DNA of 64,000 bases from contig NC_088297.1 of NCBI RefSeq assembly GCF_032854445.1, positions 10,564,163 through 10,628,162 on the forward strand, written 5' to 3'. Of this stretch, positions 575 through 53,000 are shown piece by piece. The notes beneath the pieces were generated by a model. The model ran no database searches. It had not been told where the DNA came from and worked only from the letters and a program-made list of their open reading frames with translations. The position numbers and the translations under genes were made by a program. The number at the start of each line of letters is the position of its first letter. The first letter of the stretch is position 1. This DNA is from Liolophura sinensis (lineage: Eukaryota; Mollusca; Polyplacophora; Chitonida; Chitonidae).

Positions 575-733
575 GAATACGCTGTGAACTGTTCTCACAT
601 CACATTGGCACGATTCTGGGCATCATTCGATTTCTTTGCCTTCTCACATTTTTGGGGCTGGGCACTGAAGGCACTACTGATCCGGCACTATGGCATCTGC
701 TGGACCATCAGTATCATGTGGGAGATTACAGAG
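575..733 (+). CDS. PTDSS1: PTDSS1 exon a (first in window)
   Basis: Acceptor ttttctcag, donor gag|gtgagt. Reads [15 protein letters not shown] to ISIMWEITE, phase 0 at both ends. It carries the catalytic-core His (HFWGW) and the two Glu of WEITE. The donor region is repeated twice just downstream. Confidence 0.93.
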
Positions 734-3700
734 GTGAGTTTTTTGCACTGTTGCACTAACTGAACTATTGATTTTCTGTTGGAGGCTACAGAGGTGAGTT
801 TTTGGCACGAAGGTACTAACTGAACTGTTGATATTCTGCTGGAGATTGGTGAGTAAAATTTGTGGCACTATTTTGTCCGGTATGAACACATTTTATTCTA
901 CATATAACAAGAAGACTTTTTTTGGTACAAATTTCTGAAATTTAGCTGATAAACCATTAAGTACTTTTTGCGTGTTTGTGTTTCTTCAAGCATTTTTGAA
1001 GGCATTGTTTCTGTGTTGACTGATAAAATTATACTTTTTCTGAAGCCCTGAAACTGGCCAATCCAACCAATGTAGTTTTGTTTTCGAAATGAAATCAAAA
1101 ATGTGCATAAATTGTTGTCTTTCATATGCAACAAGGTTGGGGAATTAGGATATGTGAATACTGTTGAGCATATTTGATAGAAACACTCTTGAAAAGCTGC
1201 CATACTTTCATATCATTCATATTCACGTACGTTCAGTTTTCTCTTTTCGATTACAGATGGCATTTGCACATTTACTGCCAAACTTCGCAGAGTGCTGGTG
1301 GGATGCGATCGTCCTTGACGTGTTGATCTGTAACGGACTGGGCATCTGGCTGGGGATGTATATCTGTAACAAACTGGAGATGAGGAACTACCACTGGGAG
1401 AGTATCAGGTGTGTGGGGGATGTGTAACAGGCTGGGCATCTGGCTGGGGATGTATATCTGTAACAAACTGGAGATGAGGAACTACCACTGGGAGAGTATC
1501 AGGTGGGTGGGGGATGTGTAACAGGCTGGGCATCTGGCTGGGGATGTATATCTGTAACAAACTGGAGATGAGGAACTACCACTGGGAGAGTATCAGGTGG
1601 GTGGGGGATGTGTAACAGGCTGGGCATCTGGCTGGGGATGTATATCTGTAACAAACTGGAGATGAGGAACTACCACTGGGAGAGTATCAGGTGGGTGGGG
1701 GATGTGTAACAGGCTGGGCATCTGGCTGGGGATGTATATCTGTAACAAACTGGAGATGAGGAACTACCACTGGGAGAGTATCAGGTGGGTGGGGGATGTG
1801 TAACAGGCTGGGCATCTGGCTGGGGATGTATATCTGTAACAAACTGGAGATGAGGAACTACCACTGGGAGAGTATCAGGTGGGTGGGGGGATGTGTAACA
1901 GGATGGGCAACTGACTGTGAATATGTATCTGCAAAAAACTGGAGATGAGAAACTACCAATGGGTTGGTGGGGTGTGTGTAACAAGCTGGGCATCTGACTG
2001 TGGATGTATATCTGTGACAAACTGGAGATAAGGTGTACAACAGGTTGGGGATGAACTATTACTGGGAGAGTATAAAGGTGGGTGGGAGGTGTGTAACAAG
2101 CTGAGCATCTGACTGGATGTATATCTGTGACAAACTGGAGATAAGGTGTACAACAGGTTGGGGATGAACTATTACTGGGAGAGTATAAAGGTGGGTGGGG
2201 GATGTGTAACAAGGTGGGCATCTGACTGTGGATGTATATCTGTGACAAACTGGAGATAAGGTGTACAACAGGTTGGGGATGAACTATTACTGGGAGAGTA
2301 TAAAGGTGGGTGGGGGATGTGTAACAAGCTGGGCATCTGACTGTGGATGTATATCTGTGACAAACTGGAGATAAGGTGTACAACAGGTTGGGGATGAACT
2401 ATTACTGGGAGAGTATAAAGGTGGGTGGGGGATGTGTAACAAGCTGGGCATCTGACTGTGGATGTATATCTGTGACAAACTGGAGATAAGGTGTACAACA
2501 GGTTGGGGATGAACTATTACTGGGAGAGTATAAAGGTGGGTGGGGGATGTGTAACAAGCTGAGCATCTGACTGTGGATGTATATCTGTGACAAACTGGAG
2601 ATAAAGTGTACAACAGGTTGGGGATGAACTATTACTGGGAGAGTATAAAGGTGGGTGGGGGATGTGTAACAAGCTGGGCATCTGACTGTGGATGTATATC
2701 TGTGACAAACTGGAGATAAGGTGTACAACAGGTTGGGGGTGAACTATTACCGGGAGAGTATAAAGGTGGGTGGGGGATGTGTAACAAGCTGAGCATCTGA
2801 CTGTGGATGTATATCTGTGACAAACTGGAGATAAGGTGTACAACAGGTTGGGGATGAACTATTACTGGTAGAGTATAAAGGTGGGTGGGGGATGTGTAAC
2901 AAGCTGGGCATCTGACTGTGGATGTATATCTGTGACAAACTGGAGATAAAGTGTACAACAGGTTGGGGGTGAACTATTACTGGGAGAGTATAAAGGTGGG
3001 TGGGGGATGTGTAACAAGCTGAGCATCTGACTGTGGATGTATATCTGTGACAAACTGGAGATAAGGTGTACAACAGGTTGGGGATGAACTATTACTGGGA
3101 GAGTATAAAGGTGGGTGGGGGATGTGTAACAAGCTGGGCATCTGACTGTGGATGTATATCTGTGACAAACTGGAGATAAAGTGTACAACAGGTTGGGGGT
3201 GAACTATTACTGGGAGAGTATAAAGGTGGGTGGGGGATGTGTAACAAGCTGGGCATCTGACTGTGGATGTATATCTGTGACAAACTGGAGATAAGGTGTA
3301 CAACAGGTTGGGGATGAACTATTACTGGGAGAGTATAAAGGTGGGTGGGGGATGTGTAACAAGCTGAGCATCTGACTGTGGATGTATATCTGTGACAAAC
3401 TGGAGATAAGGTGTACAACAGGTTGGGGATGAACTATTACTGGGAGAGTATAAAGGTGGGTGGGGGATGTGTAACAAGCTGGGCATCTGACTGTGGATGT
3501 ATATCTGTGACAAACTGGAGATAAAGTGTACAACAGGTTGGGGGTGAACTATTACTGGGAGAGTATAAAGGTGGGTGGGGGATGTGTAACAAGCTGAGCA
3601 TCTGACTGTGGATGTATATCTGTGACAAACTGGAGATAAGGTGTACAACAGGTTGGGGATGAACTATTACTGGGAGAGTATAAAGGTGGGTGGGGGATGT

Positions 3701-6700
3701 GTAACAAGCTGGGCATCTGACTGTGGATGTATATCTGTGACAAACTGGAGATAAGGTGTACAACAGGTTGGGGATGAACTATTACTGGGAGAGTATAAAG
3801 GTGGGTGGGGGATGTGTAACAAGCTGAGCATCTGACTGTGGATGTATATCTGTGACAAACTGGAGATAAGGTGTACAACAGGTTGGGGATGAACTATTAC
3901 TGGGAGAGTATAAAGGTGGGTGGGGGATGTGTAACAAGCTGAGCATCTGACTGGATGTATATCTGTGACAAACTGGGGATAAGGTGTACAACAGGTTGGG
4001 GATGAACTATTACTGGGAGAGTATAAAGGTGGGTGGGGGATGTGTAACAAGCTGGGCATCTGACTGTGGATGTATATCTGTGACAAACTGGAGATAAGGT
4101 GTACAACAGGTTGGGGGTGAACTATTACTGGGAGAGTATAAAGGTGGGTGGGGTGGGGGGTGTAACAAGCTGGTGTGTCTAGGAATGAACTACCACTGGA
4201 AGAGTGTCAGGTGGGTGGGTGGGTGGGGGCTGGGGGTGTACAACAGGTTGGGGATGAACTAGTGGGAGAGTATAAAGGTGGGTGGGGGTGTGTAACAGGC
4301 TTGGCATTTGACTGGTGATGAACTGCAGTTGGAAGGGGATGTCAATTTAGACGTGGGTGTTAGGATTTAAATGAATGAATGATCCTTAAAAGACATTTGG
4401 GGACCTCAGTGGCTGAGGGGCTAGCACGACAGCACAGTGCAATGACCCTGGGCCTCTTACCAATGCGACTCATGCTAGCTTCCTCTCCGGCTGTACATGA
4501 GAATGTCTTCCAGCAATCTGCGGATGGTCGTGGGTTTCCCTCGGGCTCTGCCGGGTTTCCTCCCACCACAGTGCTGGCCACCATCGTATGAGTGAAATAT
4601 TTTTTAGTACAGCGTAAAACACCAATCAAATAAATAAATAATTGAATTAAAAGGCATTCTTTGTTCCAACTCTATCCCAATAGGAAATTTATGGACGGGC
4701 TACACAAAAGGGTCCAGTTATCAGTAGAACATATCGTTTTGTGCTGTGACACTGCGGTGCTTGTGTACTACCTAGGTGTTTTACGAGCAGACATACACTG
4801 ATAAGTGTGACAGAATAAAAGAATGAATGAAGGATTTCATAGCTTCTGACTGCTATGGTGCAGGCTTGCATGAAGATGTTTTCGAGTTCCCCATTATTTA
4901 AGTCTTTTAAGCCAGATGGGTTTCGGTGACCCCAGACATAAGTTGTTATTCTAAAGCACTTTTGAAATAAGATGTTATTCCATGGTCTTGTGTTTGTGTT
5001 TTAGAGATATTCACTCTACCCCAGGGAAAATCAGACGAGCTGTGTTACAGTTCACACCTGCCAGGTGAGTGCTTACTAATCTATACAGGTAGAAGCTCTT
5101 GGCAAACCAGGGTTCGGGTGATTGTAAGCAGAAACAGCTGTGGTTTAGGGTTATAGAAATAGCATGCACCTGATTGGTTAAAACTGATAAGATGGGGGCG
5201 CTTTCCATTTTCTAAGTGATTGCAAATTTTTTTCTTTGAACTGCGATATCTCAGTCGTGCAACGTGACCAAGGCTAAAAAAATGTATGCTTGTTACAAAA
5301 CTTTCTGAGGGATACTCTTGATGGATACATATATTTGGTTTAGTTTTTTTTTTTTCTTTTAAAACTGTCTTATAAACAGCCTGCTTGGAAGAGAGACACT
5401 GACAGCTCACGTGCAAAACATGCCTTCTAGTTGAGATTAAATCTAGTTATTGGCAGCTGTTCATTAAAATACAATGTGTACACTTAAAGAAAAAGTGAAA
5501 ATGAAAGAAGCTGACATAAATGTTTGTTGTTTTTTTATGTATTCGTTCAGTTGGACACATGTTCGCTGGTTGGACCCCAACTCTTCCTACATGCGTGTCG
5601 TTGCTGTTGCAATACTAGTAGTCATATTTCAGGTAAGTTTAATCTCGGCAGGTCCTCTAACGAGAGTCGATTAAGGTACGTGTACATGCTTACCAGGTGT
5701 AATAGGTCTCCTATAAGTACATAGAGTTGTGTGGCTAGTGACGAAGAGTTATATAGCCACAAGGTTTTGACAGTAAAAATTTAATCAAATTTACCTTTAA
5801 TCAAATTCGATCAGCAAAGTGTAACATTTAGATGCAGTTTGAAAACATAATTCGTGTCATGTAGAAGGTTGAGGCGTATTGCCCAGATGGGGAGTGAGTA
5901 AACTTCACAGAAATCATGCCATAATGTGTCCAGGTTGGAAAACGTTCCTCTAATACGCCAATACCGGCCCCGATAGCACAGTTGGTAGAGCGTCCGCTTC
6001 GGGAGCGGTAGATCCAGGGTCAATCCTGGGTCGAGTGACCCCTAAGACTTTAAAAGAGGAAGTGGTAACTTCTTCGCTTGGCATTCAGAATGAAGGGGAT
6101 AGTTCAACAACTGGTTGACCCGTATCAGTATAGTGGCTCGGGCGTGCGGCTAACTTGCCTCTGGTAAGGCATCTCAGTGAAGCAGCACTAGATAAAAGAG
6201 CTGTGGAAATCCGCCCTACAACAAAGAGGCACATTACATACACTCTAAGGATTCGCCCTACAACAAAGAGGCACATTACATACACTCTAAGGATTCCTTC
6301 GTCATCATATGACTGAAAAATTGTTAAGTACGATGTTAAACCCCTAGTGACTCACTCACTCTAATACACCAAAACATGCACTATGTTGCATGTTTTGTGG
6401 AGGATTTAAATTATCTCTGTTATTATCAGTCTGATTCACAAGGCTAATTTGAGGTGAGCTCCACTTCTGTCAGATTTTAACCTCTGCTGTAATATGCAAA
6501 AGTCATACTACCCTAATTCCTCGACCTTTTCTAATATGAAAGAGCAACTTTCAGTGCAGTTTATGCACATTTTTAATTTGCTTTTTGGGGCCTCCGTGGC
6601 TCAGTCGGCTAGCGCTCTAGCGCAGCGTAATGACCCAAAAGCCTCTCACCAATGCGGTCGCTGTGAGTTCAAGACCAGCTCATGCTGCCTTCCTCTCCGG

Positions 6701-9700
6701 CCGTACGTGGGAAGGTCTGCCAGCAACCTGTGGATGGTCGTGGGTTTCCCCCGGGCTCTGCCCGGTTTCCACCCACCATAATGCTGGCTGCCATTGTATA
6801 AGTGAAATATTCTTGAGTACGGCGTAAAACACCAATCAAAAAAAAAAAAAAAAAAAAAATAATTTGCTTTTTTGTTTGTATTGGTCATTTTCAGGGCTTT
6901 ACAAAAAGTATAAATTTATCAGTCAGCACAGAATAATGCCTTCAGAATAGACTTGAATAAACACCTTGCAACATGTGAAAAAAGGCTGAGGAATGGAGTA
7001 CACATGTATACGCCACAACGATTCTTCATTGGTTATTTGCATGGCATTAACCGATGCCTGGCTGATATTATCTGTATTGTATTGTTTTGCATTTTAGTGA
7101 CCAGCAATCGGCAAGGGGATTTGTATGACTTCGTGATACCTTATTCATAACAACTGTAATTTGTCACCATTTTTGCATGTTTGTCACAAGCCTGTCATTA
7201 AGCAATAGGACATTTTATTTATTACTTTAAGTGGAGTTTTACGCCGTACTCAAGAATTTTTCACTTATACGACGGCGGCCAGCATTATGGTGGGAGAAGA
7301 CTGGGCAGAGCCCGGTAGAAAACCCACGACCATCAACAGGTTGCTGGCAGACCGTCCCACTTATGGCTGGAGAGGAAGCCACATGGACTTGAACTCACGG
7401 TGACCTCATTGAGCAACAGGAAAAGGATAACTGCCTGCACCAAATAGGGCTTTGACAGGGGGCCTATTGTATGGTTCTGGACAAAACTACCACATAAAAA
7501 ATATTGTAACTTTTGAAGTAAAGTAAAAAAAAGTGTATAGTCTGTCATTTATGTAGTTCAACTTAAACATTGTTTACAGGTTTGTGCAAGGTGTTTATTT
7601 AAACTTATTCTGAGGGCATGCTCTTCTGTAGACTGATAAAATTATATGTTTTGTCAAGCCCTGAAGTTGACCAACCCATTTGATGTAATTTTGTCTGCAA
7701 AATCAAACTAAGAAAGTCCTAAAATGTCACGGAAACTTGCTTTTTAATATGTGAAAAGGTTGAGGAACTAAAGTAGTCATGCTAAAGTGATTACATGTAG
7801 TTGTTAAAATTAGCAGGCTGTACCTGCCGAAAGGTTGAGCACCTGATTCTGTGTTGAGGGGTCACTTGTTGAGGGTCACTTAGCTTCATCAGAAAAAAAT
7901 AGGGGAGAGCAGGAGGGAAAATTTAATTTGTTACTGTTTTTTTTTTTTGATTTTGGCTAATGAAAGAGATAGGGAATTCAAAGAAACAGAGAGAGAAATA
8001 TAAAAGAAGAAAATCTATCAAAATGCCAACAAAGAGTAGGGCCAGTAGGGTTACCCTCAACAAACATGTTTTTCATGATGGCCTTAACTCTTAACAAGCT
8101 CTTGTGGGGGGCAGGACTCCCCACAAGTTTGTGTGCTGACTCAATAAGCCTTATCAATACCCCCTGGGGGAAATACAGGCTGAGTTTGTCTTTATTGGCA
8201 GGGATAATGACATCTCCTGGTTAAGAAGACTTTTACCTGTCTTGTTTGCTAACTTTGTAGCGATTCCTCGTATTGATCCGGTGGCTGGAAGCAACGCTGA
8301 GAAGCCGACAAAGAGCAGATTGTGTAAATTGATTGCTTCTGGTGGACAAGTTTTTGTCATTGTCTAGGGCTGTGTAAATAGGCAGATCACCAGTCATGGT
8401 CTGCAATTAGACACGTCTTACTCAGTGATTCGTGTGGCGGTCGTGGTTTTAATAAGCCTTGGGTGTTTGACAGGTGTTTTACCTCTTGTGAATTGATTAG
8501 GTTTTTATGCCTAGGCCTTACTGTTTATAGTGTATGTCATAAACAGACAAGAGTGAGTGAGTGAGTGAGTGCTTGGGGTTTAACATCGTACTTAACAATT
8601 AACTTAACAGTCATATGACGACGAAGGAATCCTTGAGTAAGCAGACAAGATGAGCAGCAATTGATTATCGGCTGAACAGTATTACGTTACACATGCATCT
8701 AAGGCTAAAATGATGACAGGCTCAATGGAAGTCGGCAGTTAGATAGACCTTGCCTGCGACTGCTCGATCTTGGTTTAATTAGCTGAGATTGTTTGACATG
8801 TGCTTTTCCTCTTGTGAATTGATCTGTTTTATATGGATATGTTTTCACAGTGCACTGCTGACCTGGGAACAGGGAATTTGTAGACTTGCCCACTCCCACA
8901 GCAGCCTGTGTGGAGTAGCTGTTTGCATTTCTAACATTGGTTGAAGACCACTTATCTTCCATCATAATAGTGTTCATGTCTGTATACGTCACACGTGGGA
9001 AAATTGCCATAGGTCGCTGGTTTATGCCAGGTGCACAACTTTCCTCTGTATACAGATAAAACTGATCACCATTGTGTGCATAAAAAATTCTTGATCATGA
9101 TGGTAAACCACAGTTAAATTAATAAATAAATGACTGTACCCTACAGGTATGTTCACTGTACCCCACAGGTATATTCACTGTACCCTACAGGTACATTCAC
9201 TGTACCCTGCAGGTATATTCACTATACACTGCAGGTATATTCACTGTACCCTACAGGTATTTTCACTGTACCCTACAGGTATATTCACTGTACCCTACAG
9301 GTACATTCACTGTACCCTGCAGGTATATTCACTATACACTGCAGGTATATTCACTGTACCCTGCAGGTATATTCACTGTTCACTGCAGGTATATTCACTG
9401 TACCCTACAGGTATATTCACCGTACCCTGCAGGTATATTCACTGTACACTGCAGGTATATTCACTGTACCCTACAGGTATATTCACCGTACCCTGCAGAT
9501 ATATTCACTGTACCCTGCAGGTATTTTTGGATGCTTATAATCAGACAACACAACCAATATGCCATACTTGTGAACATCAAAAGCACGCAGAGTTTATGAT
9601 TGACGTGCCATGAAATGTTTTTTTTTTAATTGTAAAATTGTAAACTTGTTTATGTCCAAAAGTAAGAGGATTTATTCTTTCTAGAATGTAGTAGCATTTT

Positions 9701-16390: not shown

Positions 16391-16398
16391 GCCAAATG

Positions 16399-22182: not shown

Positions 22183-22184
22183 GT

Positions 22185-22219
<35 letters not shown>
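22183..22219. repeat. TA microsatellite
   Basis: (ta)n run with a few substitutions. Confidence 0.9.
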
Positions 22220-26639: not shown

Positions 26640-27070
26640 ATACATGCAAAATTCTTTTCAACACCTGCTCTATGTTCTCAGCACAGAGCAGGTGTTCGCA
26701 TAAACATCTGATTTATGTTCTCATCACCCAGCCTTATGTTCTCAGTACATTAGATGTTCTCATCAACACCACCTTTATGTTCTCAGCACCCAGCAGGCAT
26801 TCTCATCAATACCAGATTTGTATTCTGAGTACACAGATTCTTTTATCAACACAACCTTTATATTCTCAGCACCCAGAAGGCGTTTTAATCACACCTGCTC
26901 TATGTTCTCAGCACAGAACATGCATTCTCATCGACACCTGCTGAACATTATCATCACACAGTAGACCTTCCCACCAACACCTGGTCAATGTTCTCAGCAC
27001 ACAGCAGGCATTCTCATCAACACCTGGTCTATGTTCTCAGCACACAGCAGGCGTTCTCATCAACACCTGG
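26640..27070. repeat. 43-bp array derived from the PRKCSH-like stop region, about 10 copies
   Basis: The unit, on the minus strand ccaggtgttgatgagaac then gcctgctgtgtgctga, is the end of the terminal exon (codons for [10 protein letters not shown] and the stop) plus 12-13 bases of 3' UTR. Copies closest to the gene are almost identical; distal ones are diverged. Confidence 0.9.
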
Positions 27071-27135
27071 TACCTGCACTTCTCTTGTTCGTTAAGCTGA
27101 ACAACCTCATCTTTGGTGCCACAGTGAAACTCAAT
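27037..27135 (-). CDS. PRKCSH-like terminal exon (end of MRH domain)
   Basis: Acceptor tatgttccag, 32 codons and TGA. Reads [20 protein letters not shown] then [12 protein letters not shown]. It supplies the Glu and Tyr of the MRH pocket and the last cysteine (TPAxC as in PRKCSH). It is too short for routine ORF calling. Its last codons are the founder of the array at 26640-27070. Confidence 0.87.
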   Translation of the reverse strand: MEFHCGTKDEVVQLNEQEKCRYQVLMRTPAVC

Positions 27136-30100
27136 CTGGAACATAAAATCATAAATCAGCTTGTGTGAGACTTTATCTTTTTTTATGTCCTATGATTTCA
27201 GTACACATGACCCATAAAATCACATTTGAACTCAATTTCAACCAGAAAATCATAGTTCAAGGCGAGAATGGTGTGGCAATTCAATTACAATTACATGCAT
27301 ATAATGTTCCTTATCCGATAATTTTAAAATACAAGACCCATATGCCTGATCTTCACCAACAGCTAGGTCAGCTGACTATTATTTGTTTATTTTATTATTT
27401 ATTACGCAGATCACATGTACCGGTAGAGAAAAACTCGACTAACCCAATGACCTTTGGTAAGTCACTGAAGAACATTCTAACGTACTGATATTCTCACCAT
27501 ATTGGTGGAAGACAAGTGATCTTCAACAAACTCAGCCGCACACAGCATCTTCCACTATTTTTTTGTCACCAAGGCCCCACAAACAGTGGGAGGAGGGTGA
27601 ATCTACAATTGACTGCCTAAAGCTGGCTTTGAACCCACAACTCATATGGCCTAGCAACTGAAAGGAGAACGCCTTAACCACTCTACTCCACAGCATACTC
27701 CCTGGTTTGTGGATTCAGAAATCTCCAAAGAAAAACATTTACCACCATTTTCAATTTAAGTACACTTTAAGGTTTAAAATTTCAAGGATTTTCCAGGCCC
27801 CAAATTGATATTTTTCCGGCGTCTTAGAGTAAATATTCTACCCTTATACAAGCTTAAACTAATGTCCTCAATTACTTGATCTATCACAATCTTTCAAAGA
27901 CGTTGGTGGGAAAAAAAAAACACACACACACACACAGCAGTTCAAGTAGTTCAGTTGTTTCAATTCCCAGGCTTTTCCAGGTCCAATAACAGTCTCTTCC
28001 ACTCTCACCTCGATTTTCCAGGCTATTCAAGGCCTGGAAGACTTATCATCAAATTTCAGGCTTTTCAAGGCCTGGAAGACTTATCGTCAAATTCCAGGCT
28101 TTTCAAGGCCTGGAAGACTTGTCATAGAATTCCAGGATTTTCAAGGTTTTCAACGCCCTGTACAAACTCTGTATTTTCCATACTGCTGTCCATGTAACAG
28201 ATTGAAGACGTACATGTGTAATGTACCAGGCTTCCCCAGACACTTACCACAACCTCTCTATGGACACCCCCGGGGCACAGGTCCCTGTCCCCATCCTCCA
28301 ACCTTAGCTGCCACACCCCGTGTGACCCACGGCTCACCCAAACTGGGCTGCGGCCGAGGATCTTGGAAGCCTTGGGGAAGACTTGTTGATGGACGGACTG
28401 GAATGGGCAGATGTTGTACTCAAACTCCCCAGCGGTATAGTCCAGACAGAGTGACTCTAACTTGTAGAACTCGCCGTTCTCTCCATACATCTGTGACAAC
28501 AATGATCGATTAATTATACGGATTGATTGATTATTTGACAGATTGAGCACATGCAGCTGATTCAGAATAAATGAAAATTTTTGTTCATTTTAATTTATTT
28601 GAATGCTGTTTCTTGTCATGCTAAAAATATTTTGTATGTACACATTGGCAGTCAGTTCTACATCTGGAGAGGCCAGGCAAAACCACTGACCTTTTGGCAA
28701 GGATATGAAGAACTTGTGAATGATTAATTTAGTGTACATATTTCATTCAGAATAAATAGAAGTTGCTGTTTGCATTGAGTTTCAGTACTGTTTAATTGAC
28801 TTTGATTGATTTATCTGCCACATTAAGAATTTTCTATTTAGTCATATTTATGGGTGCAGGAAACTTGAGTGGTTGGGTTAAACCAACAAGCCTTGGCAAA
28901 GTACTGACAGACTTTTCCATTTGTGTAATTGACAATTTTTCAGCCATATGAAGATGAGGAGTCATTACCACTTGTGATGTACAGGTACATGCAAACTTTA
29001 TTTGTGGAGGACAAGTGACCTTTGATATATACAGTGCATCAAAAGTAAGTTTCCCCCCCAAACTCTGTTTGACCTTTACAAATCGTTGTGAAATTTTGTG
29101 CACAGCATTTCAGTAATCAAGTCAACACACTGCAAGAAGTACCCTGTATATACACTGTACAGAAGTGTTGCACAGAGCATGCGCAAATACATTATTGGTC
29201 GGATTTTGAAAATTTAACAGGTTCAAGATGGCAATGGATTTCTTTTTATGGACTACAATGCTCGTCCACATCGTGCCATGTCTTCTTTGAATATAAAGGC
29301 TTTGAGCACGTGCAATGACCCACCAAATCCTCGGATCTCAATCCCACTGAACGTTTATGCAGCCAGTTGAAACAAGCGGCGTATCGCTCTGTTACGATGG
29401 TGTTCGATTTTGATGACGCTAGACATCTGTTTCAGGAGGAGTGGTTAGTCTTCCCTCAAAATCGGATCACGTGCCTCATTAACACGATGCGAGCTTCCTG
29501 TCTCAGTGTGATACAAAAGCACGGTGATTATACCAGATCTTAACATTATCTGGGCGTACAGGTAGTCAAAATTATCTTCTGAAAATCATCTAAAATTTTC
29601 AAAATCTGACCGACAATGTGTTTGCACATGATCAATTTATTTATTTATTTATTTGATTGGTGTTTTACGCCATACTCAGAAATATTTTGCTTTCACGACC
29701 CCGGCCAGCATTATGGTGGGAGAAAACCGGGCAGAACCCGAGGGAAACCCACGACCATCCGCACGTTGCTGACAGTCCTTCCCACTTATGACCGGAGAGG
29801 AAGCCAGCAAGAGCTGGACTCGCAGCGACCCCATTAGTGAAAGACTCCTGGGTCATTATGCTGTGCTAGCACGCTAACTTATTGAGCCACAGAGGCCCCA
29901 CATGCTCAATGGAGCACAACTGTATGTACAGGGTAATCCTTACTACAATGTGTTGACTTGATTACTGAAACACTGTGTATATAATTTCACAGTGACTGGG
30001 CAAATAACTTGGTAAATGTCAAACATTGTTACTGGGGGAACTTACTTTTGATGCACTGTTTACATTATGATTGCACAAATGGCATCAGAAGCACGACAGT

Positions 30101-30191: not shown

Positions 30192-33100
30192 AAGTATGTA
30201 TGTATGTATGCTTCCGATTTTACACTGTACTTCACAATGTTTCAGTCATATGATGACGAGGAGCCATTAGGTGTGTGTTCATGTACTGCGTCCTGTTGTC
30301 ACAGAGAGAGTCCATGTCGCCAAAGTGCTGCCACCACTGAAGCATCATGCCAAAGACACCCAATATGACATACCACTCACTGACATTATACTGACACCAG
30401 GCCAACCACCCCCGTTCCCTTGCCCTAACTTCTCAGTGCTGAGTGCCAAGCGAGACTGCAAAAAGTACCATTTTAAAGTTTTTGGTCTGACCCAACCTGG
30501 GTTTGATCCCAGCTTTTCCGACTTCCATATACATGTACTGTATGTACGCACCTGATTAGGATTGGGTTTGTCTGCACCATACTCTATGTATGTTTGTTTG
30601 ATTCGTCGTCCCTCTGCAATCATCATCTGTCTGCGCAGTTTGCTCTCGCGGAGTTCATCACAGAGGTCGTAGCATGGTGCATAGACGTCCCAAAATCGCC
30701 TTTGTGCGCTATCTGTAAAGTAACCGTCAAACAGTATACCAAAAGGTGCAAACACAAACAAATCAATTTCAGTTTTTCATTTTGAATCAGATTAAATTTT
30801 GTACTCACATCATGTTGATAGGAATGTAGCCATATGAAGACAGGTGTTAAAAAAAGTCTATTACAAATTTGGAAGAGCAAATGCAAATTTATCAAAAAAG
30901 TAAAAAAGATTGAAAATTTCATTTTTTTAAATGTCTTGGCATGAATAACATTTATCTGCTTTTCTGCCCGAACTCTTCATATAAATACATAGTATATGCG
31001 ACTGCTTCCGAGGGCCCGATTTTAAAAAAATTTTAGTAGAAAGTAAAAAATTTTGATAAACCACTCTTCCATAACTTTTGTCGTAAATCACTATCACAAT
31101 CTAGCAAAATAAACCCGCAGACATCAACCATGGGAACTTCACACAACTTCAAACAAATCTGATTTACAGCTGTGGGATTCCCCTGTGCACTTTATTCGCA
31201 GAATGAGGCCTCTCCCCATAATGCTGGCTGTTGTCGTATAAGTAAAATATTCTTGAGTATGGCCTAAAACACCACTCAAATAAATATAGAAGCAATGAAG
31301 AAGATTATGAGGTTTTAAAAAAATGGGCCGTGTTTGCATACATTTACATGTTGCTTACTCACTATAAGCCTAAGCGGCATTTTTAGGGTTCTCACGAGTT
31401 CACGCAGATATTGGAGAGAGAGGTGGACGCTGTCGCAAAATACCACAGCCAAAAAACATGATTTTACATTAAGTGCCAACGACGCCATCGAGTCAACGGA
31501 CAGATGTGTAAAATAATTTTTTTCATTTTCATCTACGTTATTTTGCTAGAGCTTTCACCTGTTTAGCTGATATCTGCGTGAACTCGCAGCCACCCTGAAA
31601 TGCCGATTGGGTTAATTGTTTTACCTTGACCTACCAATTAGAAAACAGCACATTGACTGATTCTCTAAATGTCACAGTAGAGTATTAGCGCTACGCATGT
31701 TTTTTTTTTTCAAACTTGGCTTTATCTTTGACCTTTAACCTTTGACTGACCTTTAACCTTTGACTGGGGAGGGACCCGGGCATCTCCCCACTCGTCACTA
31801 CCATCACAACAGTCACATATGCCATCATTCACTCTGGTGGTGGATATCACAAGGGGCTCAGTTTCCGACACCTGGAAGCTGCAGTAAAACCTATAACAAA
31901 ATTTCACGACAAAAGGGTTTATCAATCAACAGGTGTATCTAGAAGAATTTTTATACGCAAAGAGCATTTCACCCATCACCATGCCAATCAGATGTCTGTT
32001 CCTATTTATTTCTTTATTTCATTGGAGTATTACTCAAGAATATTTCATTTATATGATGATGGCCAGCATTATAGAGGGAGGAAACCAGGAGAAACCCACA
32101 GCCATCAGCAGGTTGCTGTCAGACAAATTTTATTTTATTTATTTATTTGATTCGTGTTTTACGCCGTACTCAAGAATATTTCACTTATATGACGGCGGCC
32201 AGCATTATGATGGGTGGAAACCGGGCACAGCCCATTGTAACATTGTACTTAACAATTTTTCAGTCATATGATGATGAAGGAATACTTAGAGTGCATGTAA
32301 TGTGCCTCCCTGTCTCAGGACGGATTTCCACCGCTCTTTTATCTAGTGCTGCTTCACTGAAAAGACTTACTGAAGGCAAGTAAGCTGCCCCGCCCGAGCC
32401 AATATACTGATACGGGTCAACAAGTCGTTGCACTATCCACTTCATGCTGAACGCCAAGTGAGGAAATTACAACTTCCTCTTTTAAGGTCTTAGGTGTGAC
32501 TCGACCCAGAATCGATCCTGGATCTACTGCTCCTGAAGCAGACGCTCTACCAACTGTGCTATCCGGGGCAGTGGTGGGAGAGAAGTGGTCTTTGTTGAAC
32601 ATCAGACTGCATGTCACAAGAGCTGTCGACCGTCCCAGGGTGACTCCACAAAATCCAAAACATGATCATTTTTACAGTCTTCATGTGAAAGTATGTTTTA
32701 CATACCAGCTTTTGGAATGTATGTATGTATGCTTTGTACCTGACAATTTTTCAATCCAAAGGATGTTCCAGCCTTTGGCTTAAATACAGTTCTTCCATTT
32801 ATACATACATATCTGGTCAGGCTAGTGGCAAATTCAGATATATATCTGTTGACATATTCAAAAGGCCTAGTCCTAGGAACTAAAGCACGTTCCCTGGCGC
32901 AGAAAAAAACGCTGAAAAATATTTTAGTACATAAATAAAATATGTTCATCACCAAATTTTCTGGTGACAGATACTGGAATTTGACTTTTAATTTTCTCTA
33001 TGATTCAGTTCCATTGATCTCATGTTATATGTTTTTAGGTTCACTTGGAAGGTAAGATGATATCCTACTGCGAAAAATGTAAATTTCAACGTCATCAATA

Positions 33101-41020: not shown

Positions 41021-42327
41021 AATGATAGCCATGATAAGCGTATACATTTAGATGACATGCAGTATGTAGTAATTATTGTCACAGCGTCTTACATATGTAC
41101 AGCAATATTAAAGTGACTGAGCAGGAAATATGGATAATGCTCTGTGATAACAGTGTATACTGTGAAGTACTGAATTTTTGCGTGGAAATAATGTTTCGCG
41201 GATTTCGCAGTCAATAATTTATAGCGAAGAACAATTCCAGTGAAAAAAATATCCAAGATTGAATCATACATTGCAAGTAGTAGTAATAATGAAGTGAAAT
41301 CTTTGCCATGGTGACGGGAGTTGTGCTAAGAAAGCTCGACTGGCCATCTAAATTTTTTAACAGCAGGGAAGGTAAATTATGGCTTAAATATATACAAACT
41401 CTGGTGGGGGTTTATTCGTCTTTAGTTTGATCAGTCTTGAAAAGTGAAAAGAAAAGTAGATACCAGCACGTGCTGGCTTCTAATTAGTGTTGCTCTGATA
41501 CACGCTATCCCATTGGTAATGTCTCTCCTGTGGTCCAATGAGTGAGCTTCTAACAAACTGTGAAGTGTGTGCAACAAAACAATGACCGTTTGACAGCTAT
41601 GGCAAAGTTTGCCGTTTTTCTGCCCTTCTACAGAGGATGATTAAAACTGAAAACAATTTAAAGCTTGATAAAGAATGAGTGACTGGTGCAATAATGGTAA
41701 ATTCATATGTTTTGCGTTGAACTGCTCTAAAGGTGACAGGTCTCTTTGCCAGGTGTTTAAAAGTGCTGATCAGTGATTAGAAAAAAAGTGACACCTGTTT
41801 GAGTACTGCTCACGGTAGGTGCGAAAGTAATCTTCTTACATAGTTATTATCCATCCCCCATTGTTTAACCTGTGATCCAGATCACGAGGATTAGCGACAT
41901 CGCAGGAAGAAAAGGAGGATTAGAGCCACCGATGAAGACGCCTGTTTTATATACTTGAATAATTTCGACCATATTATATCTTCGAAAATTTTAAGATCTG
42001 TGTTTCAGTATTCTCTTAAATATGCCAAAATTAATTCCCGTAAACATATTTTTGGAGAAAATTCGCGAAAATAAATTCCAGCGAGTGATAAGTACTTTAC
42101 AGTATGACATGTGGCTCATACTAAATATTGTCCCACTGACGGACATTACCATATGTATAACAGGATATTGACAGGGTCTGAGGTAACGGGATAAGTTTAG
42201 GTAGGTGTGTGTCTCGGTGTCTTTGGGATGAGACACCGTATTAGGTAAAAATTAACAAAGTACATTTCCATTTACAGTAGAGGGAAAATGAGACAAAAAC
42301 AGATGATGAGACATCCTGATTTCAGAT

Positions 42328-42535
42328 TCTGGCTACATTTATTTCTTTATTTCATTGGTGTTTTTTATGCCTTACTCAAGAATATTTCATTTACACAACT
42401 GCGGTTGACATTATGTTGGGAAGAAACAGGGCAGAGCCCAGGGAAAACCTTTTCCAGCTGTAGGTTGTTGCCTGACCTTCCCATGTATGGCTAGAGATGA
42501 AGCCGGCATAAACTGGACTTGAACTCACAACGACG
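42328..42535 (-). mobile_element. SINE-A copy (diverged)
   Basis: tttcattggtgttttttatg to taaactggacttgaactcac. Confidence 0.85.
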
Positions 42536-42685
42536 GCGTTCTGGCTGTATCTATTGATAGCAGTATAGATGACACGGTAGTAAAGATGATCATTAAATGC
42601 CTGCCTGATCTGTATGGAATAATGTGACCAAGCAAGGGACGTGCATTTTGATAGTGGTATATATGTATTGTACAGTACTACATAC

Positions 42686-42915
42686 TGTTGTTCTTCAACC
42701 TTTTTGTATCTTTGTAAGCTGTTTGTTTAAGCATATTCTGAAGGCATTTTATGTGTTGACTGATAAAATTATACTTTCTGTGTAGCTCTGAAATTGGCCC
42801 AACCAACCAAAAACCAATGTTATTTTGACCCCAGAATCTAATTAAATATGTGCCAAAATTGCACTGAAAGTTCCTTTTGTACTTGCGAAAAGGTTGAGAA
42901 ATTAGGGTAGATGAT
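42686..42915. mobile_element. MITE-D copy
   Basis: Left end gttcttcaaccttttt, core gttgactgataaaattata, right end cgaaaaggttgagaaatta; the two ends are inverted repeats. Confidence 0.85.
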
Positions 42916-45827: not shown

Positions 45828-46215
45828 AACTGTTTTCTGTATAGAGTTTTAATTTTTGGTGGATATCTTCTTACACACATGACGATGATTTCACATTTGT
45901 TCATTTCTGTGGTTGTCATGTTTACCAGTTTCCCTACCTATACTATATAAATAGGTATAAGTTCTTGTAATAACACCAACAGTTTTTTGTTTAGAGTTTT
46001 CATTTTTGGTGGATACATACATACACAGATGATGTGTAGTGACTCACGTTTGCCCATTTGTGCAGTTGTCACTCCAGATAGCCATTTTCCTTATGAATAT
46101 GTACTGTATAAATAGTTATGGTATTATGTCCGAGCTATACCTCAAACTGTTTTCATTTTTGGTGGACGCATTTGCCCATTTGCGCAGTTGTCATGGTAAC
46201 CACGTACCTATCATC
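45828..46215. repeat. ~140-bp tandem triplicate upstream of RNF19 first coding exon
   Basis: Three copies share tagagttttaatttttgg, tggatac, gtttgcccatttgtgcag and tactatataaatag-like words. Copies are diverged; each holds a tataaata-like box. Confidence 0.75.
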
Positions 46216-46411
46216 AACACTCATGAAAATTCTCCTTAGTGGTTGACTTACACTCACCACAATACTGCTGGTATTTTATACATGTCAAACAATGCATTTG
46301 TTGAGGCGTATGTTGTGTTCACCTGAACTCCTGTTGATTTGTGTTTTCCAGTTATGTTGAAGGGCCTTTGTAAGTGCATCGTTGACTTTTGTGCTGTTGT
46401 TGATGTTGCAG

Positions 46412-47026
46412 TGACGTGTAGGATTGAGGTAGCTGCCTGATGATGAGGCGAGAGCGAAACACCACTGTGAAGACACGGAAGGATGGGAGGAAAGATGTGG
46501 ACAAAGCATCCACGGTCTCTGTAAATTCACGCAACTCCATTGAGCGGCAACGCTCACTCATCTCACGTTTCTCACTCAGAAGACTTTTCACGCCTCGAAG
46601 ATACCGGATCAAGTCCAAATCCACTGCAGAGACAGAATACTTTCCGGACAGTGTCATACCTCCACTGGACAATGATGGCCAGTCGTTGCCGTCAACACCA
46701 CGCGGCGAGCTTATTGAGAGGAAAAAGTCGCTGACGGAGCGAGAGTGCCCATTATGTCTCTCAGAGCAGCCCATTGAAAACTTTCCAGACATCATCACGT
46801 GTCACCACCGGTCATGCCGTGAATGCCTGCGGCAGTACTTGAAAATTGAGATCACGGAGAGTCGTGTGAACATAGCTTGTCCTGAGTGCTCAGAGAAATT
46901 CCACCCCAATGACATTAAGATGGTGCTACAGGACGAGGCGCTAATGCAGAAGTATGAGGATTTCATGGTTCGCCGAGTGCTTGTGTCTGACCCAGATTCC
47001 AGGTGGTGCCCAGCACCGGACTGTGG
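46412..47026 (+). CDS. RNF19: RNF19 first coding exon (RING1)
   Basis: Acceptor gatgttgcag; 28 bases of 5' UTR, then ATG ATG at 46440. Met2 has the better context (A at -3). The exon encodes a basic, Ser-rich N-terminus, RING1, and ends WCPAPDCG in phase 2 at donor gtaagt. Confidence 0.92.
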
Positions 47027-50000
47027 GTAAGTGGATGTCATTGAGAAATGTATGCCTAGAAAACCAGACTAAAATTAGTATCAAAAATATTGTTGTTTTT
47101 TGGAACTTCCAAATAGAAGTGCCGATTTGTGTTGTCACAGTAGTTTTACAACAGCATGCCCCAGCTTACGATGGTACTTCTGTTTCTGTTGGTCCCAACT
47201 GTATGAGATTTGTGTGCTTTGTCAGCAAAGGTACATGTACAGTGATGTCGTAGACGGAAGGCTACGAGCCTCTGCAAGAGGAAGAACAATATACGGATTG
47301 ATGTGACTTGTTGTGTTTAATGTTTGTATAGTGTCCCAAGATACATATGAGCACCCAAACTTGGCTGTGGATATCACTGACTATAAAACGTTGTGTCTTC
47401 GTTACAGGTATGTAGTTATAGCATCAGGTTGTGCGGGCTGCCCCAAGATAAAATGTGAGCGCCCAGGCTGTGATACTTACTTCTGTTACCACTGTAAACA
47501 ACATTGGCATCCGAACCAGACATGCGATGCGGCACGGGCAAAGCGCTCCCCCAACATCAGATCAGCCTCGTTGAGCTATGAGGGTGGACAGTCAAGTAAG
47601 TCTAAGAATGTGACTACATTGTGGTGGATGGGAATTTTGTACGTTAACAGTGACTTAGAGTGGGGGGAATTTCACATTTCACAAGACAATATGGACTGTC
47701 AGTAAGATTCAGTTTGTTTACTTTTAATGAGCTTTACTTTATAGAGAGTTATACTTTCCGTCAATTACTGTTTCTTTCAATTACATGTGTGGTTTCACAA
47801 CCCTTGTGGAATATCAAGGAGAAAGTTTAAAAAATAAAATGTTTCAGTGTATTTGTTGCACTTCATATCAAAATGAAAATGAAATGTCTCCTACATATGT
47901 ATAAGCCTGTTTGACAAATTTGTGGTAAACATCCGTAAAGTTGAATCTCTGTACTGATGTGGTTTTAGATGACATCAAGCCCTGCCCTAGATGTGGAGCT
48001 TTCATCATCAAAATGAATGATGGCTCATGTAATCACATGACTTGTGCTGTGTGCGGGGCAGAGTTCTGCTGGCTGTGCATGAAAGAGATTTCAGATCTCC
48101 ACTATCTCAGGTAATATTAAATACATATACTAAAAGAACTAATGACTGGCCTACATGTATATGTACAGTGTATGCGTGCCCCTTAGTGAGAGCCTTAATT
48201 ATGTTGATCAGGTGTTTGGTAAACCTCTCTCACTACAGACATCAGATGTTGTCAGGCTGTCACCACGGGGTTTAAGATGCGTGTCTTTGAGTTGTAAGGA
48301 CACATAAGATGTCGGTTTAATATGCAATTTTCTATTTTTTTTCCCATCATAATGCAGCCGCCGTGGTATACTCTGATTCTTCAACCTTTTCGCACGTGCA
48401 CGTGCAACTTTCAGTGCAATTTATGCATGTTTTTAATTCGATTTTGGAGACAAAACTACACTGGTTGGAACAGCCAATTTCAGGGCTTCACATAAAGTGT
48501 AAATTTATCAGTTTACACAGAATAATGCCTTCAAAATGTGCTTAAATAAACACCTTGCAAAGATGCTAAAAGGATGAAGAATTACAGTCAGTGAAATATT
48601 CTTGTATGGCTTTGATTGATAACACCAGTCAAATAAGTAAATGAATAAATCAATATGCATGGTGCACACAGTCCTTGGAACTCCTTGAAAAGTACAATTT
48701 CATTTTCAAACACTTGAAATTCCTTAAAAAATACAAATACTCCTGGAAACTCCTTGAAAATCTTAGTTTGTCCCAAACTTAAATATTGTCTGCTGACCGC
48801 CGAGTCTGTATATCGTGAGCTCGCTGATAATTCTCCCATAATCAGGGCTTCTGCTGGCACTCTGTCCTAATTTCTTTCTGGGGTTTTTAGCAGTTTTTTG
48901 CAATTTTTCCTATGAAAATAATCCATTTATTTCATGTCAAACAGCCTTATCTCAGCGAAACAACAACAACACAGTTGTATGGCGATTATTTGACAGAAAT
49001 CTGCAAAGGGGGTTCAGCATTGTTGCATGTTGACTTCCATTGAATAACGCTTGAAATCATTTTTGTTAAATAACGAATGAGTATCATGGCATTTTGGGCT
49101 GATACTTTTCAATGTCTATTGTAAAACAAAAAAAAAATTATCAAGGGAAATAAGTCAAGGTAGAGTTACACCTGTAAATGAAGTTACCTACCATGAAAAA
49201 TTTAAACTTTCCACTTAATAAACTATTTTTTTTTTTGGATCTGAAGTAAATTAAATGTTTCAGAATATGTGCCGATGTATAAATGTGTACGCCGTATGGT
49301 TTTTCTCCTGTCAGACTCCAATGTTGCTCCAATGTACTGATCATGATGATCTATTTAAATAACTGAATTTACAAATTAATTTCGTAATAAATTTTTCTGA
49401 TAGAGGAAATTACATTTTACTAGGATCCTACAGATAGGCTGAAAAAACGGATTGATTTTTTTTTTCAAAAAACGAAAACATGCTGCCAAGCATTGGCCCA
49501 TTATTTTGAGGGCAATTGTTCTAAATGTAACGTTTGATAAACTCCAGATATAGCTGGAAGAGACCAAACTGATTCTAGCAGCTACACCAAGGCAGATAAA
49601 AACGAATTACAGAAGGAGACCTACAATAGTCATGTCTACTAAGGAAGTATGGCTAAAGAAAAATGGTATTTACTACAAAATCTGATGAGTGGCTAAAGTG
49701 ACTGGCTAAAAAAATATTCACCCAGAGGAAGCCCTGCATAATTACAAATGGCGTTCATTTTTTTTTACTGAGCCCTGCCCGGATTAAAGAATGTGTCACA
49801 CTACACAAGTTAAGGGCAGATATTTGTTGCAAAAACAAGCGTACTATTCAATATATATGCATGCAAATTAAAACATCTATAATTCAGACTTAAAATATAG
49901 TCTATAATTTGCACCATAGTATGTTTAAACCAGCCTTGAAAAGGACAAAAAACTACTGGAAAACTCCTGAAAGCCCCTTGAAAACTCGTTAAATTTCATT

Positions 50001-53000
50001 TTCATATACCTGTACGAACCCTGACATTTCAGTGTGAAAATAGTTGTTAATCACAGGTCACAGCACTCAGTACCGTGTGTGTCCACCGTTAGCATCACGA
50101 TGAGCGGGAACTGGTATTAGTGACCACACTGTTTTCACGCTGCCATAGCTTCTGAATTTCTGTTCTAAAATGTGAAAATCTGGCGAAAATTGAAGCCACA
50201 ATTGATATAAAGAATACTTACCCTAATTGTTGCGTTAACAAGCTATGTAATACTGGGACAAAAACAATAAATAAACAAAATAAAATTACTTCATGTGTTT
50301 ATATTCTTATTGACTACATATGTTTTTCTGCTTTCTTTGGTTACAGTCCATCAGGGTGTACATTTTGGGGGAAAAAACCTTGGAGTAGAAAGAAAAAGAT
50401 TTTGTGGCAGTTGGGAACTCTTGTAGGAGCTCCTATAGGGATCAGTTTGGTGGCTGGTATAGCTGTACCTGCGCTAATCATAGGAATACCTGTCTGGGTG
50501 TTCAGAAAGGTGAGCTATTCATCATCCTGCAGGTGTGCCTGCTTTCTTTAGCTTGTGCAGGATTCGAATTTGGGTTCCCTTTTGCACCCACATTTTACAA
50601 AATGGCTTCAAAGGTGAAAGTTTTTGGGTGTACTGGTATTTAACCCATGCACCCTTAATTCCAAACCCTTTTGTGTGGTCTTTCTGTAGACATATCTGGA
50701 ATATCAGAATTATGTCATCTAGAAGTCCTGCAGCAGGTACTGTTTACTTCTTCAACTTTCTCACATTTTGGTGTTTAATGAGGCTGGTTTTAGGCCATTA
50801 TTCTGTTTAGTCTGAAACCTGAATACCTGGTTGAGGACATTCTCAGTCGTGTCAGTTATAGTGACATGTAATTTGAAATATTAAATTGTTGACGTGTTAA
50901 AACGTTAGTGGAACATAGGAGAGAAATGAGTGGGACAATTTTGAAAAAAAAACTTTTATTAAAAACATACAGGACTGTGATTGGTTTTCACCCTTCATTA
51001 CATGTATTGTCCCAAATGTGTGACAGTTGATTAGGACAAGATGTATTTGGTTTTGTTTCAGATTAACAACCGTTATGAACATTCATCCAAGCACAAGCGT
51101 AACATCGCCATCACAGGAGGGGTCTCTGCCTCTATCATCGTCTCCCCCATCATTGCTGGGCTCGCTGTTGGTAAGATAGCAGTAGAATGGATATACATTA
51201 CACACATTCATGTAAAAATGTGTGTATTTTCAGTGGCAGTGATCATAATTCACGCCGTCCTCGTATAAGTGAAATATTCTTGAGTGTATCGTAAAACTCC
51301 AGTCAACTCCAGTACATCACAATTCATGATCAGCACTTTAGGTTTCTGAGGAAGTCATGTTGGATTTGTTCACCTAAACACTCCAGTGTGTCCAGGAAGA
51401 CATTTTTAGCTGAAAAGAAAGTGATGATATACAGTACTAGCAAGTTTCAGAATAAAATTTACGTGGAGGAAATTCCACACTGGAGTGACAATTTAAGTGT
51501 ACATTAAATCAGTTTACCTGTCAATTTGATGACTCATTTGGGAAAGTTTGCTCTATTTGGGAAAGTCTTTTTCAGTAACTTGCAGAAGCTTGTCTTTCCA
51601 CCAACTGTAAAAGTGACTGCCATTGTATAACTGAAAAATTTTTATTTACGTGTTTAAACCACAAACACCATTCAGATAAATATTTTGAAAAAAATATAAA
51701 TTGCATGCCATGTAATAATCGTGCATTGCAAAATATTTGTATGTATTGTGTATTTTTGCATTGCATTGTGCATTTTTGCATTGTGGATTTTTGCATCGCA
51801 CGTGCCCTCACTTTGCTTCGTGTTCTCTCAGGTATCGGTGTACCAGTGTTGCTGGCCTACGTGTATGGGGTGGTGCCCATTTCTCTGTGCCGCAGTGGGG
51901 GCTGTGGGGTCACCACCACTGAGGCAGGTGGGGTCAGGTTTGAGTTTGACGAGAATCAGGAAGGAAATGGAGCAAACGGTGCTTATGGTGGTGAGTCCAG
52001 CTTCAGCTACATGCACCTGTGTTTTATCAAAACATTAAAGAAAAATGAAATTGGAAATCCATCTTGTTTTTTTTGTCTGATTTTCTTTAGGAACAATTGC
52101 TGGGTCAGTCCACATTTCCCTCATATTAGGTGATTTTCAGTTTTATGTTTTTTTTTTGTTATACCCTCCAATCCAGCAACCTTAAGAGAAGATTTATTCT
52201 GCCCATGAAACAAAAATTTTCATTGGTGCAGCTTTACGTGTACATTGGGAAATCACAGTATCATTCATTTTGTCTTGTATATCTTTGTTTAGGTGACAAC
52301 CAGAGTGTTGAGACAGCCCAGAATGTGGCTAACCCCAGCATTGCACCCAGCATTGGCGAGGCCTCTGTGGGGATGACCAACAGCTTGAGCGCCAGCGGAA
52401 GTCACCTGGATCGTGTTGGTATTTTGAGAGATGAGAGCGACCACGAGTCTGCCAGCAACCGGGCCATCGCTGGCTCAAGTCTCAACGGCAGTATATGTGA
52501 TAGTACCTTAGGGGCTACCAGTGCTTTATACCACAACAAGTAAGTTTTGTGCCTCTGTGTATGTGATAGTACTACTTGTGCTTTATACCGAAACAAGTAA
52601 GTTTTGTGCCTCTGCATATGTGATAGTACTACCAGTGCTTTATACCGCAACAAGTAAGTTTGTACCACAGTGTATGTGGTAGTGCCTTAGATGCCACCAG
52701 TGCTTTATACCACAACAAGTAAGTTTTGTATGACAGTACATGTGATAGTACAGTACCTCAGGGTCTGCCAGTGCTTTATACCACAACAAGTAAGTTTTGT
52801 ATGACAGTATAAGTGATAGCACCGTAGGGGCTACGAGTGCTTTATACCACAAGTAAACTTTGTATTAGAGTGTATGTGATAGTGATTTCTTCTTAGATGA
52901 GAATTGAAGGCCTTTATTTCAATGAGACAAAGTCTTTTTACAACATGGTACCAATATCAACAGTGGTCTTCCCTTTATTGAAAGTGAAAATGAAACTGGA

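Follow-up and report, generated by a model that had tools for sequence, protein, structure and literature searches.

Tandem arrays founded on exon 3' ends and their splice donors in the chiton Liolophura sinensis

Arrays in three neighbouring genes

The window, a stretch of 64,000 nucleotides from Liolophura sinensis, includes genes for PTDSS1 and for a glucosidase II beta-like (PRKCSH-like) protein, both identified by Pfam and PDB comparisons, and a gene for an RNF19-type RBR protein identified by its Pfam IBR domains. After merging, arrays with a period of at least 6 number 23 and cover 13.5% of the sequence, and five of these 23 lie at an exon junction or a stop codon. All five had been reported in a preliminary description; all are real, and both Tandem Repeats Finder (TRF) and reading of the sequence place each of them near the position reported. 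Four contain an exon 3' end together with its splice donor, two of these having only about two copies, and the fifth contains a stop codon. Units, periods and genes differ among the arrays, and the earlier claim that no single repeat family has spread thus stands.

Coding exon a of PTDSS1 (575..733, + strand), delimited by its acceptor and donor and by alignment to PDB 9b4e, ends in ..GATTACAGAG/GTGAGT with the junction at 733/734. A 60-bp array of about 2-2.4 copies (727..868, +; TRF and sequence) carries the last exon bases and the donor in its first copy. Coding exon b (1257..1408, +), for which the splice sites were read and the same PDB alignment was used, ends in ..GAGTATCAG/GTGTGT with the junction at 1408/1409. 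Its array (1325..4330, +) corresponds to the TRF rows 1325-2033 and 1962-4153 and a degenerate tail to about 4330, and consists of 94-bp units followed by about 19 units of 115 bp. The founder is the last 84 bp or so of the exon plus the donor. GT is kept in 6/6 of the junction copies recognised at 16/22 bases, and the 115-bp units have a similarity below this recognition rule. The next PTDSS1 exon was found near 5550, beyond the end of the array.

The PRKCSH-like gene lies on the - strand. Its exon 3 (31751..31890, -, the 5' boundary being uncertain between 31878 and 31890) has the donor AAAG/GTCAGT by our own assignment, with which the phase of the next exon (GAT AGC GCA) agrees. A direct repeat of 18 bp x 2.1 (31729..31766, -; TRF and sequence) spans the exon end and the donor; with only 2.1 copies it is weak, though perfect by TRF, and splicing at its second donor would lengthen the coding sequence in frame by six codons. 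The alignment of the protein with glucosidase II beta reaches as far as ..RTPAVC, and the TGA stop codon (27037..27039, -, from the translation) lies inside an array of 43 bp x 7.4 (26757..27071, -; TRF and sequence), which begins in the last coding bases and extends into the 3' flank, with weaker copies to about 26640. The RNF19-type exon, exon 7 of the preliminary description (52293..52539, +, the start inferred from the acceptor), ends in ..ACCACAACAA/GTAAGT (CACAACAA/GTAAGT) with the junction at 52539/52540. An array with units of 57-71 bp (52515..52883, +; TRF) covers the exon end and the donor; four further junction copies were recognised, and GT is kept in 4/4.

Exon ends in an independent sample

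An independent sample was taken from the same genome, for which 28,010 protein-coding genes have been published (PMC11068029). It comprises 250 exon matches to kinesin, myosin and ABC-transporter domains (292,744 bases); a further 57 UCH and 18 AMP-binding matches lie outside this sample. Under visual, unblinded curation of the junction arrays, the 3' end of an exon founds an array together with its donor in 18/250 cases, while an exon 5' end with its acceptor is held in an array in 5/250 (Fisher p 0.009). The excess of 3' over 5' ends, which the preliminary description had proposed as a check for the whole genome, therefore holds in a sample of 250 matches. Since the sampled exons match kinesin, myosin and ABC domains, the exon is likely to be the source and the intron copies derived.

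Several cases had to be decided individually. Left out of the 3' count were L044, which duplicates the L043 exon and carries a 3' array of its own, L095 (array within the intron), L171 (a 26-base echo) and L007 at 601-705, a whole-exon duplicate. The 5' count excludes the left array of L044, the whole-exon duplicate of L007 at 1697, L153 (an echo reaching into the exon), L040 (a single acceptor echo), and L027 and L001, in which the array stops short of the acceptor. When L040 and L153 are admitted on the 5' side, the comparison becomes 18 v 7 (sign test p 0.043). The 18 include L035 and L163, in which the exonic copy and the array remain separate in the TRF output, and L130, of which only 6 exon bases lie in the array and which falls outside a strict rule. 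This rule gives 15 donor-side arrays (11 with four or more copies and 4 shorter), and replaces the preliminary counts of 16 or 18, 13 and 3. Alignment of exon ends with the flanking intron reached a score of 36 or more in 15/18 cases on the 3' side and 5/5 on the 5' side (15 v 5, sign test p 0.041), against maxima of 28 (3') and 30 (5') in the reverse-complement control; L104, L135 and L035 are based on TRF or reading and not on the alignment score. The asymmetry was repeated in the ABC set, which was picked after the first two families (4 v 0 in 40).

Such arrays occur across the genome. Those of the sample come from three gene families and 17 genes by position on nine contigs, with differing units, and exon-end amplification is not special to the 64,000-nucleotide window but touches a fair share of the sampled coding exons. 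By our count a junction array is present at 4 of about 18-19 placeable donors in the window. The window is rich in them but not far out compared with the sample (4/19 v 18/250, binomial p 0.044, for a window that was picked for its junction arrays). The same diversity makes an assembly artefact very improbable: units vary by array, the copies have distinct substitutions, and the longest array in the window, about 3 kb, compares with a mean HiFi read of 8.3 kb (PMC11068029). What speaks for an artefact is the HiFi coverage of only 14x (PMC11068029), and that many sampled arrays overrun the cut ends, so that the lengths seen there are minima.

Exon 3' ends compared with intron positions

Arrays make up 12-15% of the sampled sequence, and chance overlap in an array-rich genome, trimmed by purifying selection, might account for the donor-side arrays with no true 3' excess. 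Measured as plain coverage there is indeed no excess, since 18/250 exon 3' ends (7%) compare with 14.7% of intron bases in arrays. An ungapped 35-bp profile of 150 stop-free matches was likewise flat, with no donor peak and 5/150, about the intron level; the stop-codon filter loses array-bearing exons whose matches extend into the copies, for which reason the test was repeated on all 250 matches with curated junctions, but the profile still counts against an excess. Matching for composition and repeats also raised the expected donor-side count from 3.3 to 5.6. The initial reasoning from coverage, in which 13.5% of the window would imply chance overlap, was dropped as the main test because only an array starting nearby can cover an exon end, and the fairer count of array starts does show an excess. 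Against composition-matched intron positions, 15 donor-side arrays were observed v 5.6 expected (p 7e-4), or 13 v 5.6 without the two weakest (p 0.005); a second method gave 15 v 7.0 (p 0.005), and 14 v 7.0 (p 0.012) without the one of the 15 that is false. On the acceptor side, the 5' ends of the 250 matches showed no excess over composition-matched intron positions. With an excess by two methods and the asymmetry recurring in the later ABC set, we regard chance without a true excess as unlikely, although it overlaps with the explanation preferred below, which adds the excess.

According to the preliminary description, tandem duplications appear to be seeded across exon 3' boundaries by a process of their own; the candidate mechanisms at donors are R-loops, break repair and stalled forks. 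One part of this stands, in that exon-founded arrays exceed both intron positions and 5' ends. Array starts also speak for it, with 0.64-0.80 per kb between -50 and +99 of the match end; the next two bins, +100 and +150, have 0.16 and 0.65 per kb, and beyond these, from +200, the density is 0.09-0.33 per kb. A special process at donors is less well supported, given that the last 50 bases of the match and the first 100 past its end are equally rich in array starts, and that 5' ends are amplified too. Moreover, the excess resides in arrays with four or more copies (11 v 3.0 expected), whereas those under four copies, the youngest class, have no clear excess (4 v 2.6, p 0.26, on small numbers). 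Mildly in favour, unanchored intron arrays hold 10 sense donor-like sites v 4.2 expected from the rest of the intron sequence (p 0.010), but these occur in just 7/95 arrays (antisense 4/95; p 0.13 when arrays are counted) and may have been left over from arrays that were once anchored. The signal for donor-motif seeding of intron arrays generally is thus only mild, and seeding at donors appears to us rather improbable. A paired donor-motif pattern search was uninformative, with 18 matches in all compared with 67 for the reversed control.

Donor copies and reading frame

Selection might instead keep the arrays, if repeated donors aided U1 recruitment or exon definition or provided alternative donors. 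Each of -1 G, +1 G and +2 T is retained in 97% of 153 recognised junction copies, and in the human IFI6 gene repeat donors are reported to be used. However, two further positions are conserved as well, and the copies are non-independent within an array, similarity at the junction having been the very criterion for recognising them. In none of 17 sampled arrays is the median donor of the copies stronger than the founder (weaker in 10, equal in 7). Continuing to the next recognised donor copy meets an in-frame stop in 17/21 arrays and shifts the frame in 16/21; the extension is open and in frame in only 1/21, and alternative protein isoforms via downstream donors are thus unsupported. Maintenance of the arrays for their donors is accordingly a quite improbable reading.

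In line with the origin proposed below, as are the stops and frame shifts just described, founder donors have a median score of 9.7 compared with 8.3 for the donors of other exons (n 18 and 112, p 0.005), in a comparison that mixes curated and automatic calls and takes its 112 other donors from kinesin and myosin only. The copies at PTDSS1 exon b have donors slightly stronger than the founder's, which counts against the explanation we prefer. Also against it, L104 keeps GT in 0/3 recognised copies, no copy of L135 reached the similarity rule, and similarity showed no consistent fall with distance from the exon.

Comparison with known systems

The kind of array described here is already known from the splice-donor minisatellite of IFI6 (G1P3, 6-16), which supplies multiple splice donors (Turri et al. 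1995, as cited in a passage of PMC4526556); here it is found in many genes with unrelated units. Like the chiton arrays, that of IFI6 lies at the 3' end of an exon and has donor-carrying units, and units of exon end plus donor were found in the chiton arrays except for the copies of L104, which have lost GT. IFI6 is, however, one human gene in which the repeat donors are reported to be used, whereas the chiton copies are putative donors. Introns can also be gained when an exon segment that bears AGGT undergoes tandem genomic duplication, as outlined in the review PMC3443670; this process shares with the chiton arrays the tandem duplication of exon sequence that makes new splice-site copies. 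In that account an exon segment becomes the new intron, while the chiton unit already has intron sequence from beyond the donor, rather than being an exonic segment with an acceptor in its second copy, and the extra copies are intronic.

Ordinary intronic minisatellites (VNTRs) are similar to the chiton arrays in unit length, copy number and divergence of copies, and the arrays consist of head-to-tail units with periods of 18 to about 180 and 2 to about 27 copies (TRF), minisatellite units being roughly 10-100 bp or a little longer. They differ in that the chiton founder unit takes in a donor or a stop codon along with conserved coding sequence. In tandem exon duplication and mutually exclusive exons, exon sequence is likewise repeated in the adjoining intron. 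The chiton copies are partial, with 6-115 bases of the exon 3' end in the 16 TRF-covered arrays, and not complete exons with an acceptor; the exception, L044, was not counted.

Proposed origin and significance

We propose, with a probability of roughly 0.7, that the junction arrays are ordinary minisatellites which were founded on exon ends, tolerated and then grown. The initial event would be a short tandem duplication across the exon 3' boundary, including the exon end, the donor and a little of the intron. It could survive if copy 1 still closes the exon at a working donor, presumably the one used, and further copies are intronic and spliced out; growth may then have followed by the usual minisatellite slippage or unequal exchange. 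Because the genome is so rich in arrays, about 7% of the sampled exon 3' ends are caught up. On the acceptor side a duplication would be tolerated less often, since branch point, pyrimidine tract and first AG are needed over a longer distance. Array coverage comes near its plateau about 100-150 bases past the exon 3' end and about 250-300 before the 5' end, the faster rise after 3' ends being as splicing constraint predicts.

Simple tolerance does not predict the excess of long arrays, and therefore something beyond it is needed. Perhaps an array can expand or last longer when selection keeps its exonic founder unchanged. Tentatively, the conserved exon end might act as a permanent master from which an array re-expands, because selection holds the exonic copy constant, with exon 3' ends carrying several-fold more long arrays than neutral intron sequence as a result; we consider this possible but on balance doubtful.

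The chiton arrays show how genes tolerate runs of decoy splice signals. If tandem copies of themselves follow about 7% of the exon 3' ends in a genome, often with donors that match the first in quality, the selection of the first among several nearly identical 5' splice sites must be an everyday event there. The arrays also offer a route to intron lengthening, and the asymmetry between 3' and 5' ends gauges the sequence needed at each end of an intron. Caution is warranted in gene annotation because homology matches, including several of the Pfam matches in our sample, extend beyond the exon into array copies. Should anchoring on the exon end prove true, introns would grow from exon ends and, with the 7% extrapolated to all exons, thousands of introns would open with a run of decoy donors, providing a natural test of the spliceosome's choice of the first donor.

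Genes and arrays of the window

The chiton assembly, which comprises 632 contigs, was published under the name Liolophura japonica (PMC11068029), and the animal was later renamed Liolophura sinensis (correction, PMC12441733). In this assembly the window occupies C3:10564163-10628162. Both PTDSS1 and the glucosidase II beta-like (PRKCSH-like) gene of the window are backed by Pfam and by solved structures, while the RNF19-type RBR gene is backed by Pfam IBR domains. At approximately 59–61 kb lies a gene that we take to be sphingosine-phosphate-lyase-like; a Pfam search with its 46-residue exon returned no match. A run of 200 consecutive N at positions 57605–57804 represents either an assembly gap or a withheld stretch.

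All five arrays reported at exon ends in the preliminary description were found to be present, both by TRF and by reading of the sequence. In PTDSS1 exon b, the repeat unit includes approximately 84 coding bases together with the splice donor, and the array totals nearly 3 kb. The arrays at PTDSS1 exon a and the RNF19-type exon are built in the same way but contain fewer copies. The weakest of the five is PRKCSH-like exon 3, with only 2.1 copies of an 18 bp unit, and the fifth array contains the PRKCSH-like stop codon and extends into the 3' flank. Since the coding parts of the PTDSS1 and PRKCSH-like genes align to known proteins, the exons are likely to be the source and the intron copies derived.

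The PRKCSH-like gene is itself probably a diverged copy, because further matches to PF13015 are located on contigs C8 and C7. Over 27037–27140 (minus strand), its protein stops at RTPAVC, whereas the aligned glucosidase II beta chain continues for another 16 residues. There the chain carries an ER-retention tail, which may have been lost in the window copy, the stop codon being within the array.

Sampling of exons from the genome

Exons were located by Pfam family, a search that yields the best candidates rather than every member. The first sample included every listed match to kinesin (132) and myosin (78) with 600 flanking bases at either end, 245,937 bases in total. The second comprised all 40 listed matches to the ABC-transporter membrane domain with flanks of 500 bases, 46,807 bases in total. 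Array coverage was 12.1%, 12.2%, and 13.5% in the first sample, the second sample, and the window, respectively. Not every one of the 250 matches represents an independent exon or gene; they fall into about 76 clusters. Junction arrays, i.e., those founded on an exon 3' end with its donor or holding an exon 5' end with its acceptor, were called by reading arrays at most about 115 bases from the match end, and by alignment of the exon end with the flanking intron, for which the reverse complement served as control.

Excess of arrays at exon 3' ends in the sample

In the first sample, 14 of 210 exon 3' ends carried a junction array, and in the second, 4 of 40 did. Together these are 18 of 250 (7.2%; interval 4.3–11.1%), two of which (matches L047 and L048) share one gene by position. 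Exon 5' ends gave 5 of 210 in the first sample and none of 40 in the second. The excess of 3' over 5' ends expected in the preliminary description is thus borne out in the sample (18 versus 5 of 250; Fisher p 0.009, sign test p 0.011), with p 0.064 for the first sample by itself (14 versus 5) and p 0.041 when restricted to an echo score of at least 36 (15 versus 5).

Measured by plain coverage, there is no enrichment at exon 3' ends, with 7% against the 14.7% of sampled intron bases that lie within arrays. An exon end can, however, be covered only by an array starting nearby, since coding sequence would otherwise be destroyed, and intron positions inside the first unit of an array (1.3%) are therefore the fairer comparison. 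Once the intron positions had been matched for composition and cleared of array bodies and interspersed repeats, 5.6 cases per 250 were expected, and under the same rule 15 were observed (p 7e-4), so that the excess over intron positions also holds in the sample; without the two weakest cases (L104 and L135), 13 remain versus 5.6 (p 0.005). An independent ungapped first-copy test gave 15 versus 7.0 expected (p 0.005), or 14 versus 7.0 (p 0.012) without the false case L095. At exon 5' ends there was no excess in either the matched intron comparison (5 versus 7.0 expected) or the ungapped test (4 versus 7.7). An earlier version of the test, on 150 stop-codon-free matches, gave 5 of 150 and no peak at exon 3' ends; this filter drops array-bearing exons whose matches continue into the copies.

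Array coverage nears its plateau 100–150 bases past the exon 3' end, but not until a distance of 250–300 bases ahead of the exon 5' end, as expected if splicing tolerates arrays at a much shorter distance on the donor side than on the acceptor side. Arrays with a repeated acceptor directly before the exon were seen in L053 (1–605; about 19 units) and L132 (first 613 bases in gene orientation; 11–18 units); this mirror case is rarer in the sample than the donor case.

Donor copies and array growth

In the mechanism we propose, the exon and its donor would stay intact in the first copy and the remaining copies would be intron, the first donor presumably being the one used in splicing. If the exon were extended as far as the next donor copy that was recognised, it would meet a stop codon in frame in 17 of 21 arrays and a change of frame in 16 of 21. 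PRKCSH-like exon 3 does not belong to this set; there, the 18 bp would lengthen the exon by six codons. Founder donors, i.e., those of the exonic first copies, have a median strength of 9.7 versus 8.3 for other exons (p 0.005), in a comparison combining curated and automatic donor calls. In none of 17 arrays is the median copy donor stronger than the founder; it is weaker in 10 and matches it in 7. Among 153 recognised copies from the sample and the window, GT is kept in 97% at +1 and 97% at +2, which is not evidence of function because copies within an array are non-independent and were recognised by similarity.

The preliminary description had tentatively attributed such arrays to a process seeding tandem duplications across exon 3' boundaries. 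While the excess itself holds in the sample, it is found among junction arrays of at least 4 copies (11 versus 3.0 expected, p 3e-4) and not among shorter ones (4 versus 2.6, p 0.26), copy number being taken from the best TRF row and the numbers being small. Because the excess sits in grown arrays and not in new duplications, these counts favour the view that arrays founded on exons grow or survive better, over that of a duplication hotspot. A mild signal points the opposite way, toward a hotspot: unanchored intron arrays contain 10 sense donor-like sites (8-bit threshold), where the rate in other intron sequence predicts 4.2 (p 0.010). Of 95 such arrays, 7 hold these sense sites (p 0.13) and 4 hold antisense ones.

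Relation to known systems and to annotation

In human IFI6, a minisatellite provides several splice donors (Turri et al. 1995, as cited in a passage of PMC4526556). Intron gain via tandem duplication, as presented in the available passages of PMC3443670, is a different process from the founding of arrays on exon ends. Arrays of that origin are not treated in the available passages of a comparative study of chitons (PMC12005716). Among the papers listed by literature searches, with most subscription journals outside their coverage, there was no genome-wide account of exon-end-founded arrays, which is weak evidence for their novelty.

Molluscan myosin heavy chain has mutually exclusive exons. 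Two similar exons lie in tandem in the myosin head gene of L007 (601–705 and 1697–1792; C1:26641595-26648269), an arrangement that resembles theirs. In L043/L044 (C11:27412383-27415430), the end of a kinesin exon occurs once more beyond the exon's 3' array, again with an array on its 3' side, as though the amplification had taken in a larger piece of the exon. Several profile matches that contain stop codons, among the kinesin, myosin, and ABC exons carrying an array on the 3' side, continue beyond the probable donor and into copies of the exon end within the intron. In genomes with such arrays, automatic annotation may misplace exon ends.
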